Assembly: GCA_951828385.1 (NCBI GenBank)
Contig: OX639973.1
Location: 3,401,200 to 3,465,199 of the forward strand
Reading direction: 5' to 3'
From: an uncultured Poribacteria bacterium
GTDB taxonomy: Bacteria > Poribacteria > WGA-4E > WGA-3G
Length of the DNA: 64,000 nucleotides
Part shown: piece after piece, positions 7,928 through 19,005 of the stretch
Numbering within the stretch: the first letter of the stretch is position 1
How the letters are laid out: each line of letters starts with the position of its first letter
Position numbers and translations under genes: made by a program
Notes under the pieces: generated by a model
Seen by the model: only the letters and a program-made list of their open reading frames with translations
The model's database searches: none
Told to the model about the DNA's origin: nothing

Positions 7928-9286
7928 ATGTTTGATATTACCTATTTAGGGCGGCGATGTTTCCGTTTCATTAAACGCCATCCACGTATATCTACACTTG
8001 TTAGTTTATTATTCGTCTTCTGTCTGGGTATTTGGGCAGGACGGGTCATTCAGTTTAGCAAAATAACTGACTATTTCCGCTCCTATACCGATCCCGAGAT
8101 GAGCGATGTGACGAAATCAGTTGTGGACGGAATTACGCATCGACAGATATTAGATAACGGTGTGCTGACGAACATCCTTGCCATATCACCAGATGCAGCG
8201 GATATTCGCCCATATCGTGCGTTGAGTGCGGGTATCGGTATGGAATCGTTGATGTCACTTGCACAACGGCACAAGGCACTCGCTGCTATCAATGGCGGTT
8301 TCTTTGAGATGGCAGGTACGTTCCGCGGGGAGTCTGTTGGTGCACTGAAAATTGATGGTGAATGGGTAAGCGAACCGGAACAAGGTAGAGCTGTCATTGG
8401 ATTTAGGACAGTTGATGGGAAAATTGAGTCATACATCGACAGGATCGCCTTACGGCAGGAACTCGTTTTGTCGAGTGGAGAGACATTGGCAATTGATGGT
8501 ATGAATCGGCATCGTGGTCGAAATGAATTGATTATTTACCGTCCACAGTTCCACGCCGTAACATTGACAACGCCTAATGGTGTGGAAGTTGTCGTCCGGA
8601 ATGGTGAAGTAACCGGTATCTACGATAGACAGGGCAGTTCACGCATTCCAGCAGACGGTTATATCCTTTCCGCAAGTGGTAAAAAACATGGAGACTTATT
8701 GGCACACATCAAGGCGGGTGATACTGTCCAGATTCGTGAGACGGTCATCCCAGAACGCGTCGGGGATAGCAATTTATGGGCAAGTTTCGTTCATATTATC
8801 GGCGGCGGTCCGTTGCTATTGCGAGACGGTGTTGCACCTTCCACGCAAGCATACGAGCGTGAAGGGTTTGATCAAGCGTTTCATAGTTTTTGGCATCCGC
8901 GTACGGCAATCGGTAAAAAGGCAGATGGTACGCTCCTCTTTGTAACAATAACAGCAGCAGAGGCGGGTGTTCGACGCGGTGTTATGTTACCCCGGCTTTC
9001 GGAACTGTTTTTGGAATGGGGTGCGACGGATGCGCTTAATCTCGATGGTGGCAATTCCTCAATGCTGATAATTCGAGATGAGATCGTAAGTATCAAACAG
9101 AAAGATTCTACTAAACCTGAATCTAAAGATAGACTACAATCAACTTCTCGTGACAAACGACCGCAGAAAAAGGCTATAGTCCAGAAGAATACAAAACCGG
9201 CGCGTGGCAACCGCAGAATTCGTCCGATGCCACAGCAACAAGGACGCGCAATTGCAGATGCGATCTTGATTTTTTCAAAGCCTTAG
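7928..9286 (+). CDS. membrane-anchored phosphodiester glycosidase family protein (NAGPA-like)
   Basis: The 452-residue product has a membrane segment at about residues 22-42 and then a periplasmic domain. AAINGGFFEM near residue 120 and ALNLDGGNSSML near residue 370 are hallmarks of the NAGPA/phosphodiester glycosidase fold (PF09992 type). That family includes the human uncovering enzyme and bacterial proteins linked to exopolysaccharide or cell-wall glycan metabolism. The last 65 residues are Lys/Arg/Gln-rich and probably disordered. The 111-bp duplication ends about ten bases before the start codon and may have displaced its native leader. The substrate is unknown. Confidence 0.85.
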   Translation: MFDITYLGRRCFRFIKRHPRISTLVSLLFVFCLGIWAGRVIQFSKITDYFRSYTDPEMSDVTKSVVDGITHRQILDNGVLTNILAISPDAADIRPYRALSAGIGMESLMSLAQRHKALAAINGGFFEMAGTFRGESVGALKIDGEWVSEPEQGRAVIGFRTVDGKIESYIDRIALRQELVLSSGETLAIDGMNRHRGRNELIIYRPQFHAVTLTTPNGVEVVVRNGEVTGIYDRQGSSRIPADGYILSASGKKHGDLLAHIKAGDTVQIRETVIPERVGDSNLWASFVHIIGGGPLLLRDGVAPSTQAYEREGFDQAFHSFWHPRTAIGKKADGTLLFVTITAAEAGVRRGVMLPRLSELFLEWGATDALNLDGGNSSMLIIRDEIVSIKQKDSTKPESKDRLQSTSRDKRPQKKAIVQKNTKPARGNRRIRPMPQQQGRAIADAILIFSKP

Positions 9287-9403
9287 GGTATAATATAAGA
9301 GATATTTAGAATTTGAAAAAAATTGAGGCGGTGAGACCACGTCTTTAGTAGGTTGAGCACATCTAACTGCGAACAAATAGATCAGAATAGGAGGAGAAAA
9401 GCC

Positions 9404-10309
9404 GTGTTAAACAACAGCAGCACCTGCAAATCCATCGAAAAAAAATCTATATCTGGCGTAGAACCGAAGTCAGATTTACTGTCGCGACGCTCCTTCTTGA
9501 AGGGCTCCGTTGGGCTTGCGGCCTCTGCGGTCGCTGCAGGTGGGTTAATCCTGCCAGCCCATGCCCAATACGGATTCCGAGAATATATCCCTTACGACGC
9601 GACACGCGATATTCATTACGGCACGCGATACGGAGAGATTGAACACCATTATCCAGAGATGAACCCGACAGGCGAGAAATTCACCTTTGTCCGACTCAAG
9701 TATCCGGGTGGTGATTGGTACACAAATATCGTCAACTATTATCGCTGGCCATCGGACCATAAATTCACTGAGGAACTTCTTGAAAATACGACAATTGATG
9801 TTGACCTTCGCGAGAACCCGCAATACGTTGACATTGATGATGAAGGGCTATTTGCCTATCCGTTCCTCTACATGACAGGCCATCGCGGAATCCGGCTTTC
9901 CACTGAACAGGTGCGTAAACTGCGAGATTATTTTGAGCGTGGTGGTTTCCTCCACGTTGAAGATTGTGACGCACGCCTCAACGGTGGGCGCGGCGGTTTG
10001 CGTCCACATATCTATGAGATGCTGCGGAAAGTATTCCCAGAAAAGAAGCTGGAACCTTTAGAGATGAGCCATCCGATTTATCACACGCTCTATGGACACG
10101 ATGAGTACCTTGGCGGTGATAAACGTATTCCGGGTATCTCCGATCACGATGAAGCAATTATGGACGGTGATCGCGTGATGGTCTACTTCTGCCCGAGTGA
10201 TCTGAATTGTGCGTGGGAAGGTAGACCGTGCAGCCCTGGTGGTGAGGAGCAGAGAGTCTGGGCATTTGAACAAGGGATGAACGTCGTTGCGTACGCCCTC
10301 ACAAGGTAA
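9404..10309 (+). CDS. Tat-exported DUF4159 domain protein
   Basis: The 301-residue protein carries a twin-arginine signal (LSRRSFLKG followed by a hydrophobic stretch and AHA) and then a DUF4159 region (EKFTFVRLKYPGGDWYTN, FLYMTGHRGIRL, GGFLHVEDCDA). DUF4159 folds like a glutamine-amidotransferase/ThuA-type domain, but its biochemical role is not established. GTG 9404 is chosen because GGAGGAGAAAA lies right before it; the alternative TTG at 9353 has no ribosome site. It precedes the SBP-OmpA/VWA cluster by 62 bases. DUF4159 and VWA genes are, from memory, often close in related phyla, so it may belong with that cluster. Confidence 0.85.
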   Translation: MLNNSSTCKSIEKKSISGVEPKSDLLSRRSFLKGSVGLAASAVAAGGLILPAHAQYGFREYIPYDATRDIHYGTRYGEIEHHYPEMNPTGEKFTFVRLKYPGGDWYTNIVNYYRWPSDHKFTEELLENTTIDVDLRENPQYVDIDDEGLFAYPFLYMTGHRGIRLSTEQVRKLRDYFERGGFLHVEDCDARLNGGRGGLRPHIYEMLRKVFPEKKLEPLEMSHPIYHTLYGHDEYLGGDKRIPGISDHDEAIMDGDRVMVYFCPSDLNCAWEGRPCSPGGEEQRVWAFEQGMNVVAYALTR

Positions 10310-10371: not shown

Positions 10372-12252
10372 ATGAAAAGAAATTTTAGGTTGGCTTGCAA
10401 GCAATTTTCAAAATGTACGCTGTTTTGTCTGATGACGCTGCTCATTTTTCTTGTCTTGCATGCGAACGCGCAAGAACGGTTTTCAGAGGCGGTTGGCCCT
10501 GTTACCGTTCAAGAAGTGTCAGCAACCCCACTGGTAGTACCCTATATCACATGGGGTGGCGAAGCAGCACTTTTTCATGCCAACGGTGGGTTGACGACCC
10601 GTCCGGGTACGATTATGGCGGAACTCGGTATGAATCTTAAGTTGGTGCCGGGTGACAACTTTCAGCAGCAGGTACGCGACTATCTCTCAGGCAAATCACC
10701 CTTCCTACGTGGCACCTTCAGAATGATAGCGCAAGCAAGCGAAGCCGTCGGGAAGGATGCTCGTACAAAACCTGTCGTTTTTGGACAGCTGACCTGGTCG
10801 GCAGGTGACCATTTTGTTGGACGTTCTAATATCCGAAAAATTTCTGACCTCCGGGGCAAAAAGATCGCTATCCAAAAGGGTGGGCCGCACGTAGGGATGC
10901 TCTATGACATGTTGAAGACCGCTCGGCTTTCAAAATCAAATGTGGAAATTGTTTGGGTGGATGAATTAACAGGTGCGAATGGACCGGCAGAACGGTTCCG
11001 AAACGACGCTACTATTGGAGGTTGTTTTGTGATAACGCCCGACATGATTGGATTAACAGGCGGCCCTGAGAACACCGGTACCGGTGCTGAAGGTACGGTC
11101 AAAGGCGCGAGCGTTGTCGTTAGCACTGCAACGCTTTCTCGTTCTATTGCAGACGTTTATGCTTGTCGTAAAGATTTCTACGATGCTTACAAACCGTTTG
11201 TTGAACGCTTCTTCGCCGGTTATCTGAAGGGTGCCGAAGAGGTCATAGCACTTAAAAAAGCCTACGAAACGAGTGGCTCTGAAAAATATACGCAGCTGCT
11301 GACAACGATGCAAAACATCTACGGTAAAGAAGTATTACCGACGCTTGAAGAGGACGCACACGGCTTAATCGCGGATTGCACGTTCGTTGGGCAACCCGGA
11401 AATATCGCTTTTTTCAACGATCCGAGTAATACTATTAGCGGCTTTGAAGGCTTCAACAAAGCAGGATTGGATATGGCTGTGAACTGGGGGTTTGTCAGGC
11501 AGCGATATGCGCTGATACCTTCCGATTTAAATTTTAACTCGCCAACCTTTAAGAATCTGCTCACGACAACCGTGACGGCTCCGGCACAGTTGAAACAGAC
11601 CCGCTTCAAAAAAGAGACGGTCCGTGCGGAGATTGAGTCGTTCAACGAAGACGCTGTATTAGACGAAAAGACGCTTATCTCGTTCACCATTCAATTTGAT
11701 GCGAACCAAGACACATTTAGTGATGCGAAGTACCGAGAAGAATTTGACAGGGTAGTTGAATTGGCTTCAAAATACGGGAATGCTGCTATAGCGATTAAAG
11801 GACACAGCGATCCTTCTCGAACCCTGAGCGTATTGGTTAAAACAGGACTTCAAACAGGTATTTTGAAGCGGACGGGTACGCGCGGGAACTACAAGTATTT
11901 TATGGAGGGTAAGCCTTTTAGCTTGGAAAACACCGCGAACTTGATTCGTCTGATTCAACAAAAAAAGTTTGACAATGATAGCAACGTCGAGAGTCCCTAC
12001 CGAGTGATGCGGGCTGCCTTAAAACTCTCCGAGCAGCGTGGACAAGCGGTTAAAGCGTCGATTATCAGCTATGCGCGTCGGAAAAACGCACGTATCGATC
12101 CAGACCAGATTGTGCCAGTAGGTGTCGGAATTAAAGAGCCTGTTATTGCCAAGCCGACGAGTCCGTCTGAAGCCGCAGAAAATCGGCGTGTCGAATTCGC
12201 ACTGATTAAAGTTTCAGCGGAAGCCGTTGCTGTCTCCGATTTTGATTTTTAG
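10372..12252 (+). CDS. solute-binding protein/OmpA-like peptidoglycan-binding fusion
   Basis: The 626-residue secreted protein has a signal peptide ending near HANAQ. A periplasmic binding domain of NMT1/SsuA type follows at roughly residues 45-400; ISDLRGKKIAIQKGGPHVG is the characteristic second-lobe strand. The C-terminal OmpA-like domain spans about 430-620. It keeps Asp in GHSDP (about residue 478) and the Arg pair in AENRRVEF (about 603-608), the residues that grip diaminopimelate in OmpA-type domains. A 60-residue insertion splits that domain. No ABC permease or ATPase is nearby, so it may sense or present a ligand at the cell wall instead of feeding a transporter. It heads the VWA cluster. 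Confidence 0.82.
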   Translation: MKRNFRLACKQFSKCTLFCLMTLLIFLVLHANAQERFSEAVGPVTVQEVSATPLVVPYITWGGEAALFHANGGLTTRPGTIMAELGMNLKLVPGDNFQQQVRDYLSGKSPFLRGTFRMIAQASEAVGKDARTKPVVFGQLTWSAGDHFVGRSNIRKISDLRGKKIAIQKGGPHVGMLYDMLKTARLSKSNVEIVWVDELTGANGPAERFRNDATIGGCFVITPDMIGLTGGPENTGTGAEGTVKGASVVVSTATLSRSIADVYACRKDFYDAYKPFVERFFAGYLKGAEEVIALKKAYETSGSEKYTQLLTTMQNIYGKEVLPTLEEDAHGLIADCTFVGQPGNIAFFNDPSNTISGFEGFNKAGLDMAVNWGFVRQRYALIPSDLNFNSPTFKNLLTTTVTAPAQLKQTRFKKETVRAEIESFNEDAVLDEKTLISFTIQFDANQDTFSDAKYREEFDRVVELASKYGNAAIAIKGHSDPSRTLSVLVKTGLQTGILKRTGTRGNYKYFMEGKPFSLENTANLIRLIQQKKFDNDSNVESPYRVMRAALKLSEQRGQAVKASIISYARRKNARIDPDQIVPVGVGIKEPVIAKPTSPSEAAENRRVEFALIKVSAEAVAVSDFDF

Positions 12253-12366
12253 CGGGAATAGCCGTCAGCCATCAGAAAGAGGAATGTCCGTTGAGCAACC
12301 CGTTTTGCTGACAGTTCGGATGGCTTCTAAAAGTTGACGGTTCCATGACATAGATAGGTACTTTTC

Positions 12367-13305
12367 ATGAAATGTATTATGGCAGCCGGATCCGGCACAC
12401 GATTGATTCTCCTACTGAGTCTGTTCATTTTTGGTGTTCAGATTTGCAGTGCTGACGATGATATTCATAAAGATAACATTGTTGTGATTCTCGATGCCTC
12501 GGGTTCAATGCAGGATAAGTTTAGTGGCGACCGGACGAAATCGAAGATGGAAGCGGCGAAAGCAGCATTACAAGAAGTGCTTTCTAAAGTTCCAGACGAT
12601 ACACAGATCGGATTGCTGGTGTTCAGCGGTGCCAACATCCAGAATGACTGGGTGTACCCATTAGGACCGAAGGACACGCAAAAATTGATAGCAGCCATCC
12701 ATTTACCGCAACCGAGTGGGAACACGCCCTTAGGGAAATATATCCGAATTGGGGCAAACCGCCTCCTTGACCAACGCGAAAAACAGTACAACTACGGAAA
12801 CTATCGGTTGTTAGTTGTCACGGATGGTGAGGCTTCGGATGCTGATAAAGTCAAGTACTACACGCCTGAGATTCTCAATCGCCAGATTCGTATTGATGTT
12901 ATCGGTGTTGATATGAAGACGGATCACATGTTAGCAAAAGTTGTGGATAGCTACCGCAAGGCAGATAATCCGGGAGAGTTAGTGGCAGCGGTGTCGCAGA
13001 TTCTTGCGGAAACCGGCGATACGGGTACAGATGTTGGTGGCGAAGATGCTTTTGAATATATTGCGCCGCTTTCATCGGAAATCGCTGCGGATTTGATTCA
13101 GCGACTCACAACGCCACCGAGTAATACGTCAATCACTGTAAAGCAGGCAGAGGTAACACCGACACGAACGACACCACCGAGAAAGGCTCCGACACCACAG
13201 CAAGGTGATACTGACTTTAGATCGGGGCGAGGCACCGTATGGTTTGTTGTTGTTCTGATTGTATTATCCGTTATCGGTTTCCTGATTTTCAGAAATAGGA
13301 AGTAG
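12367..13305 (+). CDS. membrane-anchored von Willebrand factor A domain protein
   Basis: The 312-residue protein has an N-terminal signal (hydrophobic residues 12-26) and a VWA domain beginning NIVVILDASGSM, where Asp43-Ser45-Ser47 form the metal-ion-dependent adhesion site. TPLG and VVTDGEASD supply further MIDAS loops. A Pro/Thr-rich linker leads to a C-terminal membrane segment (about 289-308) with a positively charged end, so the VWA domain faces the periplasm. VWA domains bind partner proteins through a metal ion. The gene sits between two binding-protein/OmpA fusions; five bases separate it from the next gene. A short ATCAG-type repeat fills 12255-12345 upstream. Confidence 0.88.
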   Translation: MKCIMAAGSGTRLILLLSLFIFGVQICSADDDIHKDNIVVILDASGSMQDKFSGDRTKSKMEAAKAALQEVLSKVPDDTQIGLLVFSGANIQNDWVYPLGPKDTQKLIAAIHLPQPSGNTPLGKYIRIGANRLLDQREKQYNYGNYRLLVVTDGEASDADKVKYYTPEILNRQIRIDVIGVDMKTDHMLAKVVDSYRKADNPGELVAAVSQILAETGDTGTDVGGEDAFEYIAPLSSEIAADLIQRLTTPPSNTSITVKQAEVTPTRTTPPRKAPTPQQGDTDFRSGRGTVWFVVVLIVLSVIGFLIFRNRK

Positions 13306-13310
13306 TAACT

Positions 13311-14906
13311 ATGGACGCTGGCAAGAAAAAACGCATCATCATCATGGTAGCGAGCTGGCTCGTTATTATCGGAGTCATTGGGTTAGTCTATAAGTTCGTT
13401 GTTGAACCGTGGACTCGAGGCGATCTTGTCAAAGAGACGAGCACACAACGTTACGCCCATAACATAAAGATAGCACATGACTCGTTTCCCGGATATGCGA
13501 TACTCCGCTCTCCGGCTGTTCAGAATCTCCTGGACCGTCAAGGGATTAAACTTACATTCGTTGACGATAAAGCCGATTACGTAGGACGCATACGCGCGCT
13601 GAAAAGTGGTAAGGTTCAGATGGCGGTTTTCACGATCGATGCCTACCTTAAGGCGGGCAGTGTTATCGGTGAGTTTCCGGGTTCAATTGTCCTCGTGATT
13701 GATGAATCTAAAGGCGCAGATGCGATTGTTGCGTATAAGCGAGGTGTCCCGCAAATACCGAACTTGAGTAATCCGCGGGCGCGTATCGTGCTGACCCCGG
13801 ATTCGCCGAGTGAAACGCTTGCCCGAATTATGATCAACAAGATGAGCCTACCGAGTTTGCCTTCCTCGTGGGCAGTTGAGACCAACGGTGCTGAAGATGC
13901 CTATAAGAAACTCAAGTCCGCTGATCCAGATGAGCCACACGCTTATGTGATTTGGGAACCTTATGTGACGAAATCCCTTGCGATTGAAGGTGTGCATCTG
14001 CTGTTAGATAGTTCAAAACTCAAGGGTTATATCGTTGATGTGTTAGTGGTTCAGCGCGAATTTTTGGATTCACAACGCGAACTCGTCACGCACGTTGTGC
14101 AAGCGTATCTTCGAGCAAACTACGACTACAATAACCAACCCGATGGGTTAGCCGCCTTGATTCAATCGGATGCGAAACAGTATGGCGACTCGCTCAACCG
14201 AAATGAGACGGATAAGTTAGTCAAGGGAATTGAATGGCGTAACACGGTTGAAAATTATGTGCATTTCGGCGTAATTCCCTCAGCAGAGGCAAAAGGTGCC
14301 GAGAGGCTCGAAGCGATGATCGGTAAAATTACACAGGTGCTGGTGCAGACGAATTCAATCTCTACCGATCCAGTGTCAGGCAATTACGAGCAGCTCTTCT
14401 TTGAGGGCATCTTGCGGTCACTACACCACGATAAGTTCCATCCGGGTATGCTGAACGCAAGCGGTAATGACGGGTTAGACGGTATATTCGTTGGCTCAAC
14501 TCCAATGGAACAGGTTCGAGAAGAGGCATCACTGAATCCGCTTTCAGATGCGAATTGGAATTCGCTCGCGCCTGTGGCAGCGATGAAAGTTGAACCGATC
14601 CAATTCGGGCGCGGGAATGCTCGGATCCTTCCAGGTAGTAAACGCGCGCTGCAAGAACTGGCTGCAAATCTGAAATCGTTCCCACAGTACTACCTCAGAG
14701 TCGTAGGGCACACGCGCCAAGAGGGGGACCCGGCGGCGAATCGGGTTCTTGCCTTACAACGTGCTGAGGCGGCGGCAGCATCTTTGAGAAATTTTGGTAT
14801 TGCAAACCACCGCATCCGTGCCATAGCGAGCAACCAGACCTCCTCGCGAATGCGGGGTGCAGCCGCACAAAGTGTTACATTCGAGCTTCTCGGAAAACCG
14901 TATTGA
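13311..14906 (+). CDS. membrane-anchored solute-binding/OmpA-like fusion, degenerate OmpA site
   Basis: The 531-residue protein starts with an uncleaved-type membrane anchor (about residues 8-29). A periplasmic binding domain follows: IKIAHDSFPGYAIL, a GKVQMAVFTIDAYL segment typical of NMT1/SsuA proteins, and YVIWEPYVTK. An OmpA-like region lies at about 430-531. In contrast to its paralogue at 10372, the expected GHxD is GHTR and the NRRVEI-like Arg pair is replaced near QSVTFEL, so diaminopimelate binding is doubtful. It starts five bases after the VWA stop and overlaps the next gene by four bases, which suggests translational coupling. Predicted role: inner-membrane partner of the secreted paralogue. 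Confidence 0.8.
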   Translation: MDAGKKKRIIIMVASWLVIIGVIGLVYKFVVEPWTRGDLVKETSTQRYAHNIKIAHDSFPGYAILRSPAVQNLLDRQGIKLTFVDDKADYVGRIRALKSGKVQMAVFTIDAYLKAGSVIGEFPGSIVLVIDESKGADAIVAYKRGVPQIPNLSNPRARIVLTPDSPSETLARIMINKMSLPSLPSSWAVETNGAEDAYKKLKSADPDEPHAYVIWEPYVTKSLAIEGVHLLLDSSKLKGYIVDVLVVQREFLDSQRELVTHVVQAYLRANYDYNNQPDGLAALIQSDAKQYGDSLNRNETDKLVKGIEWRNTVENYVHFGVIPSAEAKGAERLEAMIGKITQVLVQTNSISTDPVSGNYEQLFFEGILRSLHHDKFHPGMLNASGNDGLDGIFVGSTPMEQVREEASLNPLSDANWNSLAPVAAMKVEPIQFGRGNARILPGSKRALQELAANLKSFPQYYLRVVGHTRQEGDPAANRVLALQRAEAAAASLRNFGIANHRIRAIASNQTSSRMRGAAAQSVTFELLGKPY

Positions 14907-15694
14907 GGAAGAAATTGATTGATAGGAAATTGTTTCGGAAGAAATTCCTCCTTCACCTTCTTGGCAACTCTTATGTTATCTTCCCTTTTGCCGCGGGATG
15001 CTCTATCGCTTTTGCATCTTGGATATTCAATTTAGAACCGAAGATTCTTTATCTATTCGGAAGTGCGATCCTCAGCATTTTGGTGCCTATCGGGACCCTG
15101 ATTAGTAAGTGGGCAACTGGTACGGACGATATTGCCAAACAGGTTCACAGTGAGATTCTTCAGGAAGTCCAACAGAAACAAGAGGAAGAACTCAACATCC
15201 TACACGAACAACTTGAAGCGGATGGCGATGCTCGCACAGAAACGATGCTTGGAGAACTTCGCGCCTTGCACACATCCTTTCAGGAGGAAGCCGGTGGCGA
15301 TGGTTGGATGGGAACGTTGCCTATTACCGTTAGAGCCGACATTACGAACAAAGTTTCTGAACTCTTTACACAAGCCGTACAGTGTTTGAAGGATACGCTT
15401 AAAATGCACCAAAAATCAACAGGGACGCAATTGGGAACCACGGTCAAAAGCGTGCTTCAACAACACCGGGAACAACAGATTAAAGACGTTCAGCAGACGA
15501 TTGTTCAACTCTCACACCTCTACGCTCGGGTGCTCACACTCAACCCTGAAAGCGATGAGACAGAACTCACACGTCTTCGCACTGAACTCGACGAGAGCCT
15601 CAGTTTTGCGAAACAGGTTGATGCAAAGATACGTGAATTAACACCGCTACATGATAATCCTGATGCCCTTGAAACAAAAAATGAAGGGAATTAA
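14903..15694 (+). CDS. two-TM coiled-coil protein of the VWA/OmpA cluster
   Basis: The 263-residue protein begins at TTG 14903, overlapping the preceding stop by four bases, as expected for coupled translation. Two hydrophobic helices (about 13-40 and 45-63) are followed by a long Glu/Gln/Lys-rich region with coiled-coil character (EILQEVQQKQEEELNILHEQ and onward). With a short N-terminal tail, the coiled coil is probably cytoplasmic. I recognise no family. Its position as last gene of the cluster suggests a cytoplasmic scaffold or coupling factor for the periplasmic VWA and binding-protein domains. The tnpB element begins five bases after its stop codon. Confidence 0.72.
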   Translation: MRKKLIDRKLFRKKFLLHLLGNSYVIFPFAAGCSIAFASWIFNLEPKILYLFGSAILSILVPIGTLISKWATGTDDIAKQVHSEILQEVQQKQEEELNILHEQLEADGDARTETMLGELRALHTSFQEEAGGDGWMGTLPITVRADITNKVSELFTQAVQCLKDTLKMHQKSTGTQLGTTVKSVLQQHREQQIKDVQQTIVQLSHLYARVLTLNPESDETELTRLRTELDESLSFAKQVDAKIRELTPLHDNPDALETKNEGN

Positions 15695-15893: not shown

Positions 15894-16970
15894 ATGGCGA
15901 TCAAATCACATAAAATAGCATTAGACACGACAGCCGAGCAGTCTGTATTCTTTTCTAAACAATGCGGTTATTCCCGTTTTGCTTACAACTATGCTTTATC
16001 AGATTACCAAGACGCACCCCGACATTGGGAAGTGCTTAATAACCGTTTTAATAAAGCGAAAAAAGGTATAGATTGGACGAAAGAGTTAGATCAACGTGCT
16101 GCGTTATTTGGTATAAAACACTTGGGTGATGCTATATCCCGGTATAAAAGCGGACAAAATAGATTTCCAAAGAAAAAGAGACGGAGAAACAAACAATCCT
16201 ATAGCACTGATCCTGCTACGACATTCATAGAAGGCAAACGTATTAGATTACCTAAAATCGGGTGGGTGCGAACATTTCAAAAGTTGCGATTTAAAGGTGA
16301 GATTACAAAGGTGACTGTATCAAGAACGGCACACCGTTGGTTCGTCTCTATAACCGTTGACACAGGCACCCCTACTGCTCCACGAGACACACGTGGACTC
16401 CCTGTTATCGGTATAGACGTAGGTATCAACTCACTTGCCACACTTGATACAGGTAAACACTATCCGAATCCAAGACCGCTAAAACGATTTGAGAAAAAAC
16501 TTAAGCGTGAACAACGTTCGTTGAGCAAAAAAGAGTATCTATCAAGTAACTGGTATAAGCAGAAACGCAAGGTGGAACGTATCCACTACAAAATCGCTTG
16601 TATCCGAAATGACGCTCACCATAAAGCGACTACAGAGATCGTCAATATGGCAAGCGTGATTGGAATAGAAACGCTCAAGATTACAAACATGCTTAGGAAC
16701 AAGAACCTTGCCAAAGCGTTATCAGATAGTGCGTTAGGTGGGTTTCTCGCTATGCTCAAATCTAAAGCAGATATACTTGGAATCCCTATCAAAGAAGCCC
16801 CACAGTTCTATGCTTCAAGTAAAACGTGTAGCAGTTGTGGACACAAGAAAGAAAAGTTATTGTTATCAGAACGAGAATATAATTGCGGTGCATGTGGTAT
16901 TTCTATAGATAGAGACCAAAACGCTGCGATAAATCTAAAGCACCTCGCCGTCGGGCTGGCGGAGAGTTAA
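15894..16970 (+). CDS. tnpB: TnpB RNA-guided nuclease
   Basis: TnpB is the transposon-encoded ancestor of Cas12. It cuts DNA next to a short TAM motif using a guide RNA from the element's right end, and helps the element persist after excision. The 358-residue protein has a complete RuvC site: Asp175 in IGIDVGINS, Glu259 in IGIETLKI, and Asp in DRDQNAAINL (339/341). A zinc finger is formed by Cys312, 315, 331 and 334. The N-terminal half has the basic RNA-binding features expected of the family. No frameshift or stop is present, so the nuclease is likely active. Confidence 0.94.
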   Translation: MAIKSHKIALDTTAEQSVFFSKQCGYSRFAYNYALSDYQDAPRHWEVLNNRFNKAKKGIDWTKELDQRAALFGIKHLGDAISRYKSGQNRFPKKKRRRNKQSYSTDPATTFIEGKRIRLPKIGWVRTFQKLRFKGEITKVTVSRTAHRWFVSITVDTGTPTAPRDTRGLPVIGIDVGINSLATLDTGKHYPNPRPLKRFEKKLKREQRSLSKKEYLSSNWYKQKRKVERIHYKIACIRNDAHHKATTEIVNMASVIGIETLKITNMLRNKNLAKALSDSALGGFLAMLKSKADILGIPIKEAPQFYASSKTCSSCGHKKEKLLLSEREYNCGACGISIDRDQNAAINLKHLAVGLAES

Positions 16971-17083: not shown

Positions 17084-17108
17084 TCAGTTATCAGTTGTCG
17101 GTAAGGTA
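17084..17108. repeat. ATCAGTT heptamer fragment
   Basis: Partial copy of the dispersed repeat (CAGTTATCAGTTGTCGGTAA), starting 16 bases right of the tnpB element. The rest of 17109-17208 shows nothing recognisable apart from being A-rich before the next gene. Confidence 0.5.
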
Positions 17109-17208: not shown

Positions 17209-19005
17209 ATGGCGCGCCACATACGGCATTACGATAACATTCCGAGCAGTTGGGAACCTGTTTTAGAACGTTTAAAGAAATTTGAAGTCCTCACGCAGCA
17301 AATCAATAAAGCCAAAAAGGAACAGGGAACTGATTCAAGCGAAACGCTTAAAACGTTCTATACACAACATGACACATTGATGTCGGATACATGTGCACGC
17401 TCACAGCATGCACCGACACACTGTGATGAAACGGCTTTAGACACCGCATTTATTGAGGCTGTTTGGCTCGCCCTTGACCACTATCCGGCTTTAGTGCATC
17501 ATCCAGAGATTGAAAATTTGGATACCGCTGGTTCTAAAATCTTCACGCTCTTTATACCGGATGCTCCAACAACCCCGGATAAACGAAAAGCCTTAAAAAC
17601 TCAACTCCAACGGACATTCAATTTGAATTCGGAAATAGTGGATAGGCTAACCGAACAATTGTCCATACGGACAAGCCCGCTCCGCCATCGACACCAAATT
17701 ATGAAGAGTTTAGAGACTCGCTTTAATCTGGTATCCGATAACCCGAAACTGGACGCAGATATCTTACAACTTTTTCAGTGTTTATATCCCGGCGCGCCTT
17801 TTGAAACAGGCGAGGTGAAGTTGGTGAAAACTTCCTCCGCGCTCTATTTTTGTCTACCTACTGAACAGCGAGAGGACGCGGAGGATACTAACCCCCTTGG
17901 AAATGAACAGAGCGAAGAGTACACGATACCGCAACGCCCGAAAGTCTATTATGAAAAATTTCTGCGAAAAATTTGGGAGGTTGAACCCTTTGCCCATTTC
18001 CCCATGTTCGGTACCTTCAACGCAAAAGACTTAGATTTAGACTTCCGTCAGAAAATTTCTGCTGATACTGAACTACCTTTGGAATTGGTCACGTCAACAC
18101 TGACGCGTATGATTGGCGTTCTTCCTTTAGCAGAACTTGACAAATATCTAATTCACGATACTTGGGGACATCAGTGGCAGGAAAGTCTCCTCAATTTTGA
18201 GGAACCTTACACCGAATTGACCTTATTCAAACGTCCACTATCCTTAACGGAAACGGCTTCCGTTATGGGGGAGCAGACTTCGTTCGCGGATACATTCGTC
18301 AAAACTGAGGCAGGAACAATAGAACTTGATCCAACCAAGTTACAGCAATTCATTGATGCAGAATTGTACGAACGCGCGATTATCGCCTTTACGCCGATTC
18401 TTGCTGAAATGTTGGCGGATGTTGTGGAATACAAGTTTTTAGAACTATATCCCGAACAGGCACATCTACTGCCGAGTTCCTCTCTACTCAAAGCGTTTCC
18501 GAGCAAATTGGATTTGACACTTGTAGATCTGCATACTTGCTTTGTACACGCCTCCGAAGTCTTCCAAAACTGGGTCACCTCGAAATCAACACAACAGCAA
18601 TTACATAAGGAAATTTGCGAGAAACTTGACATTCCAAATGATGTGACAAAACACAAGGAACTCTCGCAAGTCCTCAACACTGCGGTTGAACTCTGTAAAG
18701 CACAGCTTCACTCCTTTTATCAACCGGAATGGGCGTGGGAACAAACTGAAGAAGGTCACTTGAAACTGAATGCGTTTAGCTTCGCAGCACTGAACTTCCT
18801 CCGAATTCACACTGCCTTTATTCAAACATACAAAGATTTGTCAGAGATTGAGGCACCGTGGGGTTTTAAGGACATCTTGGTATTGGCAATGGGTACTTTT
18901 TTTGAAAGAGACCCACAGCAGAATATATGGCAATTGGATAGTTTTTTAACAGAGGCATTTCTCCCGCGCTGGCAAAAATTGGCCGCTGCGGATTCAAGCA
19001 CTTAA
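17209..19005 (+). CDS. large uncharacterised protein (598 aa)
   Basis: I do not recognise this protein. It has no signal peptide or membrane segment and appears soluble and mostly helical. Conspicuous features are a central IHDTWGHQWQES motif near residue 315 with closely spaced His and Trp, a following FEEPYTEL, and acidic EYTIPQRPKVYYEKF upstream. Such His/Asp/Glu clustering could bind a metal, but that is only a suggestion. It is followed by a good terminator and is convergent with an FAD-dependent oxidoreductase; a pairing in one pathway is possible but unproven. The start is the ATG after an A-rich leader with only a weak GGA ribosome site. Confidence 0.7.
   Translation: MARHIRHYDNIPSSWEPVLERLKKFEVLTQQINKAKKEQGTDSSETLKTFYTQHDTLMSDTCARSQHAPTHCDETALDTAFIEAVWLALDHYPALVHHPEIENLDTAGSKIFTLFIPDAPTTPDKRKALKTQLQRTFNLNSEIVDRLTEQLSIRTSPLRHRHQIMKSLETRFNLVSDNPKLDADILQLFQCLYPGAPFETGEVKLVKTSSALYFCLPTEQREDAEDTNPLGNEQSEEYTIPQRPKVYYEKFLRKIWEVEPFAHFPMFGTFNAKDLDLDFRQKISADTELPLELVTSTLTRMIGVLPLAELDKYLIHDTWGHQWQESLLNFEEPYTELTLFKRPLSLTETASVMGEQTSFADTFVKTEAGTIELDPTKLQQFIDAELYERAIIAFTPILAEMLADVVEYKFLELYPEQAHLLPSSSLLKAFPSKLDLTLVDLHTCFVHASEVFQNWVTSKSTQQQLHKEICEKLDIPNDVTKHKELSQVLNTAVELCKAQLHSFYQPEWAWEQTEEGHLKLNAFSFAALNFLRIHTAFIQTYKDLSEIEAPWGFKDILVLAMGTFFERDPQQNIWQLDSFLTEAFLPRWQKLAAADSST

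Follow-up and report, generated by a model that had tools for sequence, protein, structure and literature searches.

The stretch of DNA analyzed here (64,000 nucleotides, referred to as the window) comes from a sponge-associated lineage of Candidatus Poribacteria. Four open reading frames, designated A to D, lie on the same strand at the coordinates that an earlier note on this DNA had reported, with a 5-bp gap between B and C and a 4-bp overlap between C and D (Table 1). The domains and anchors described there were likewise recovered: SBP and OmpA matches were obtained by Pfam in A and C and a VWA match in B, and the transmembrane (TM) segments indicated by hydropathy fit. A further gene, J, lies downstream of D.

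Table 1 Cassette genes and their domains in the window
Feature	Positions	Strand	Basis or remark
Gene A, secreted SBP-OmpA fusion (626 aa) with signal peptide, TauA/SsuA-type SBP and OmpA domain with ~65-aa insertion	10372..12252	+	Pfam, hydropathy, AlphaFold
Gene A, SBP (NMT1) Pfam match, residues 152-293	10825..11250	+	
Gene A, split OmpA-like domain, residues ~434-480 and 547-609	11671..12198	+	Invariant D480, R556
Gene B, secreted VWA protein with C-terminal TM	12367..13305	+	Pfam, hydropathy, MIDAS alignment
Gene B, C-terminal TM segment, residues 285-312	13219..13302	+	Hydropathy
Gene C, N-terminally anchored SBP-OmpA protein, distant full-length homologue of A	13311..14906	+	Pfam, profile comparison, hydropathy
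Gene C, OmpA-like domain, residues 426-510	14586..14840	+	GHTR, with Arg for Asp
Gene D, two-TM hairpin and helical/coiled-coil protein	14903..15694	+	Hydropathy, model, locus comparison
Gene J, 598-aa protein of no known family	17209..19005	+	Moves with D, co-occurs with A-C

Gene A was matched by Pfam to an NMT1-type SBP (E 1.4e-6) and to OmpA (E 4e-4), the latter under the Pfam cut-off because approximately 65 residues are inserted within the domain. Matches were also obtained for gene B (VWA, E 4e-13) and gene C (OmpA, E 5e-12; NMT1, E 2e-3), and gene D matched no family in the scan of Pfam-type domains. By hydropathy, A carries a signal peptide, B a signal peptide and a C-terminal TM segment, C one N-terminal TM segment, and D two TM segments. 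A and C are homologous along their whole length (profile E 1e-9). Against three relatives, dN/dS was 0.12-0.13 for J and 0.05-0.11 for A-D, so that A-D are not chance ORFs; they are under strong purifying selection against amino-acid change. The putative start codon of D is TTG, and the overlap of C and D is not general, 80-170 bp separating the two genes in most Poribacteria relatives. Promoter and terminator scans of the window stayed near the shuffled background.

The SBP region of A was modeled by AlphaFold with a pLDDT of ~90, its best PDB matches being TauA, SsuA, and Thi5, and A keeps 50-56% identity in most loci from other phyla. Its residues D480 and R556 are invariant and align with an Asp and an Arg of A. 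baumannii OmpA that contact diaminopimelate. This Asp/Arg pair was found in gene A alone, as gene C has Arg at the Asp position in the window and in all homologues except the two most distant. The tie to peptidoglycan that had been proposed for both OmpA domains is therefore supported for A, which keeps the canonical residues, but not for C. In gene B, the MIDAS residues D43, S45, S47, T120, and D153 follow the pattern DxSxS...T...D and are invariant across phyla (14 sequences).

In order to determine whether the neighborhood is conserved, loci were collected by searching with gene C (44 loci). The order A-B-C(-D) was found in approximately 30 Poribacteria loci and in 11 loci labelled as other phyla, which bears out the expectation of a conserved gene order in the earlier note. 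A-B-C is kept in nearly every locus whose contig permits the test, the exception being one Poribacteria locus that starts at C (G036/L049). The labels of the A-B-C(-D) loci are Poribacteria, Verrucomicrobia, Hydrogenedentota, Desulfobacterota/Proteobacteria, and CSSED10-310, with Uhrbacteria more distantly. Given that these loci come from metagenome bins, any single phylum label may be wrong; several independent labels agree.

The loci from other phyla continue beyond D with E (PspA/IM30-like), F (SBP), G (NitT/TauT-type permease), H (ABC ATPase), and I (AAA ATPase), although I was not found in L055 and several of these contigs stop before it. F resembles TIGR03427, 'putative urea ABC transporter SBP', at E 1e-41 to 1e-43 (below the cut-off). 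Among Poribacteria, G036 carries C-D-E-F-G-H-I, with ureC, E, and F of urease coming next. In G028 and G037 (L087, L088) the cassette is more divergent, its E, C, F, G, H, and I showing 24-43% identity; G028 also carries an A-B pair at 60-72% identity, and the two cassette versions share one contig.

E is a predicted member of the PspA/IM30 family, since one copy lies above the Pfam cut-off (PF04012, 34.4 bits versus 33.9, in G070) and the best eight PDB matches of its profile are all PspA/Vipp1 (E 7e-5 to 8e-4); the copy in L064 scores below the cut-off. I has one Walker A/B pair, located only in the C-terminal half, which is also the half that matches PF00004. Its profile is of the Cdc48/CdvC-type AAA, and no MoxR family was matched in the profile scan. 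No PspB, PspC, or PspF match was found among the cassette proteins scanned. Additional shorter E-like paralogues were observed beside E or elsewhere (L093 3883-4500, L109 4178-4933, L111 6647-8061), which suggests hetero-assemblies. In the window's genome, genes for two WD40-repeat proteins stand immediately upstream of E-I (L085 8797-12866), an arrangement that not all relatives share.

Gene D has TM segments and helices, as a TM-bearing Snf7 would, but its model is weak (pLDDT 62) and matched no known structure, and homology to Snf7 is undetectable. Descent from PspA/Snf7 was considered for D and gained no support, with an hhalign probability of 0.7% for D versus E and no match to PspA or Snf7 by PDB profile, Pfam, or Foldseek. 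The connection between D and E is consequently drawn from genome context only.

The window's genome is a single 6.66-Mb contig in which E and I form a pair at 569.8-572.6 kb, ~2.8 Mb away from the window. Between 7928 and 19005, the window encodes no permease or ATPase alongside an SBP, and a genome-wide query with F and G, H being left out because any ABC ATPase would match, gave neither an F-like SBP nor a G-like permease. An ordinary ABC system was rejected for this lineage on that result. One unlinked NitT/TauT-type SBP and permease is present in the genome and may be a partner in trans. Across 85 Poribacteria genomes, F occurs in a single genome and A in 42, and in another Poribacteria family (G030) A-B-C-D-E-I are contiguous with no F-G-H. 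These counts and this contiguity argue that the transporter-less set of A-D and E-I is stable and no local accident. Loss of the transporter from a full cassette is the simplest candidate history. The statement in the earlier note that no ABC permease or ATPase is present is thus correct for the window, and is matched by the lack of F- and G-like genes in the genome, but it does not extend to the cassette in other phyla. There, A-D run directly into ABC SBP, permease, and ATPase genes, the very arrangement that the earlier note had named as the mark of an ordinary ABC system and as counting against its proposal; the transporter is nonetheless separable and is absent here.

Gene J had no Pfam, NCBIfam, or PDB match. 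Its family has many invariant residues, including LIHDTWGHQWQESLL, and is confined among the 85 Poribacteria genomes to the window's family. D and J follow A-B-C in the window's genus and in g12. In the sister genera g11 and g13, A-B-C lie elsewhere, and D and J are found in the E-I locus in the order D-E-J-I (E confirmed in G051). J belongs with the system as a fifth window gene.

Co-occurrence was compared across these unlinked loci. All 42 genomes with A have I, and A is found in none of the 19 genomes without I. A and J, which are unlinked in g13, are both present in 13 genomes of that genus and both absent from 5 (Fisher p 1e-4, kinship ignored). On the tree of I, the g13 losses of A and J are two separate events, and the label for A changes at least seven times over the starred branches; A and D/J, unlinked in the sister genera, disappeared jointly on at least two occasions with E-I retained. 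Sign tests on independent pairs of the tree, few in number, gave a median p of 0.06, just short of significance. Mismatches in co-occurrence (G014 and G074, plus D in G056 and G064) lie at the end of a contig or belong to bins that are fragmented. Where g13 genomes lacking A were read, the locus comes down to E, accompanied by a shorter second copy resembling it, and I. Genomes of the family from which A-D have disappeared still have E and I, so that E-I also work without this sensor.

A search of the literature for this combination gave one relevant match, Ravi et al. 2024 (PMC11237479). One passage, in its section on Vps4 and classical AAA+ ATPases, states that PspA or a TM-bearing Snf7 together with an AAA ATPase can co-occur with an ABC ATPase, a permease, and PBP/OmpA proteins. 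The AAA of these operons is described as having two domains with the N-terminal one inactive (example OGG56892.1), and membrane remodeling linked to transport is suggested, a reading of related operons similar to the one proposed below. Shared with these operons are the PspA-like E, an AAA protein in which a single domain is predicted to be live, proteins combining SBP and OmpA, and, in relatives, ABC subunits. The system examined here differs in being split over two loci, in lacking an F- or G-like gene in the genome, and in a D without detectable Snf7 homology. As no ABC ATPase and permease are linked in the window, it is a variant rather than a plain member of the type described in that passage. 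The label 'undescribed' in the earlier note was accordingly too strong. What is new, relative to the passage of PMC11237479 in which the operon type was already predicted, is the VWA gene, the paired SBP-OmpA proteins, and J, none of which is mentioned in that passage, together with D as linker, the split locus, the joint losses, and the transporter-less state.

Other known systems share parts with the cassette. A has the SBP fold of NitT/TauT importers (TauABC, SsuABC, and the TIGR03427 type), with TauA as its best match, and relatives carry F-G-H; the SBPs here are fused to OmpA, however, and the genome has no F-like SBP or G-like permease. Classical Psp (PspFABC) and ESCRT-III/Vps4 have in common with the cassette a PspA-family protein potentially able to assemble at the membrane and an adjoining AAA ATPase, whereas here no PspB, PspC, or PspF was matched in the proteins scanned and a module predicted to sense periplasmic solute or the wall is added. 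SBP-type folds serve regulation rather than delivery in CmpC and NrtC of the cyanobacterial bicarbonate and nitrate transporters, where the regulatory SBP-like domain lies in the cytoplasm as a fusion with the ATPase. A has the CmpBCD regulatory domain among its PDB matches, and the comparison is limited to how such a system may work.

We propose, with a probability of roughly 0.5, that A-B-C-D (with J) form the sensor and anchor half of a system whose effector half, E and I, is encoded ~2.8 Mb away, and that periplasmic ligand sensing controls a PspA/AAA membrane machine. The computed support consists of co-conservation across unlinked loci, the domains and predicted topology, the MIDAS of B, the peptidoglycan-contact residues of A, the constraint on the genes, and the absent transporter SBP. 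The envelope system suggested in the earlier note survives in its gene order, peptidoglycan-binding-type domain, and membrane anchors, and is incomplete within the window, as E, I, and J belong to it. In the proposed mechanism, A would bind a small solute in the periplasm while held on peptidoglycan, and C and B, both at the inner membrane, would form a ligand-responsive complex with it. D could pass the state of this complex across the membrane via its two-TM hairpin and cytoplasmic coiled coil, recruiting or releasing the PspA-like E, and I would spend ATP on remodeling E or taking it apart, much as Vps4 acts on ESCRT-III. A solute, or strain in the wall, would thereby lead to a controlled stabilization or reshaping of the inner membrane. 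In other phyla the same machine would additionally carry a NitT/TauT importer. More tentatively, the cassette may be a bacterial ESCRT-like machine (PspA-family protein and AAA) whose gating from outside, by wall-tethered SBPs and a VWA protein with MIDAS, runs through a two-TM coupler, with J replacing the transporter genes in one Poribacteria family to leave a pure sensor-effector system.

The strongest competitor, though an unlikely one, makes the genes an accessory of a NitT/TauT-type ABC importer, with A and C tethered to the wall to concentrate a nitrogenous solute (urea or guanidine-like) for F-G-H and, in this lineage, serving another importer in trans. F-G-H do follow directly in other phyla and in G036, where urease genes stand after I; F resembles TIGR03427, albeit below the cut-off, and the unlinked NitT/TauT-type SBP and permease could supply the importer. 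A literature search on guanidine and urea carboxylase transporters gave nothing useful. However, of the 85 Poribacteria genomes, 84 lack F whereas 42 have A, which is strongly constrained where measured; the unlinked transporter brings its own SBP, and PspA, AAA, VWA, and D are left unexplained. This accessory role and the sensing role may both apply in phyla with F-G-H; the former explains the Poribacteria case poorly.

A-D might instead be a wall-linked sensor or signaling module that stands alone, unrelated to PspA/AAA and gathered with other genes in envelope islands. The distance between A-D and E-I in the window's genome and the persistence of E-I without A-D fit such an arrangement, but the contiguity of A-E and I in G030, the shifting of D and J between both loci, and the joint losses speak against it, and we regard it as improbable. 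A stand-alone system of just four genes was rejected because E-I and J belong with them by context and co-occurrence. Least probable of all is that VWA and AAA work on an envelope protein as a MoxR/VWA-type pair, either as a chaperone or in metal insertion. A VWA protein with an intact MIDAS and an AAA ATPase do co-occur in the cassette, but B is predicted to be periplasmic (from hydropathy only) and I cytoplasmic, placing them in different compartments; I is Cdc48/CdvC-type, and PspA, SBP, and OmpA have no place in pairs of this kind.

The proposed sensor-effector system bears on how PspA/ESCRT-III proteins are switched in bacteria lacking PspBC and on the role of the bacterial AAA partners of PspA. 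The cassette offers defined parts with natural knock-outs, in that some genomes have the sensor module and others lack it, and likewise for the transporter, so that control of a PspA/AAA machine by periplasmic ligand or wall sensing becomes testable. The family-less D and J, from widespread uncultured sponge symbionts, are given a role by association.

Several features of the flanks were also recorded. A gene for an NAGPA-type phosphodiester glycosidase and a Tat-signal DUF4159 gene (window 7928-10309) flank A-B-C in many Poribacteria, the position of the DUF4159 gene varying by genus between upstream of A and downstream of C. Between D and J, an IS200/IS605-type TnpB gene with its flanks occupies 15894-16970 of the window, where the D-J gap of close relatives is usually tens of bases. 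In L021 (9600-9735), a repeat-rich segment of ~130 bp (GTTATCAGTTGTCAG ... ACCGATAACCGATAACCGACAACC) parts C from D, which is not so in the window. A motif similar to this repeat, which is possibly a mobile miniature one, lies at approximately 17087-17104 of the window, just upstream of J.
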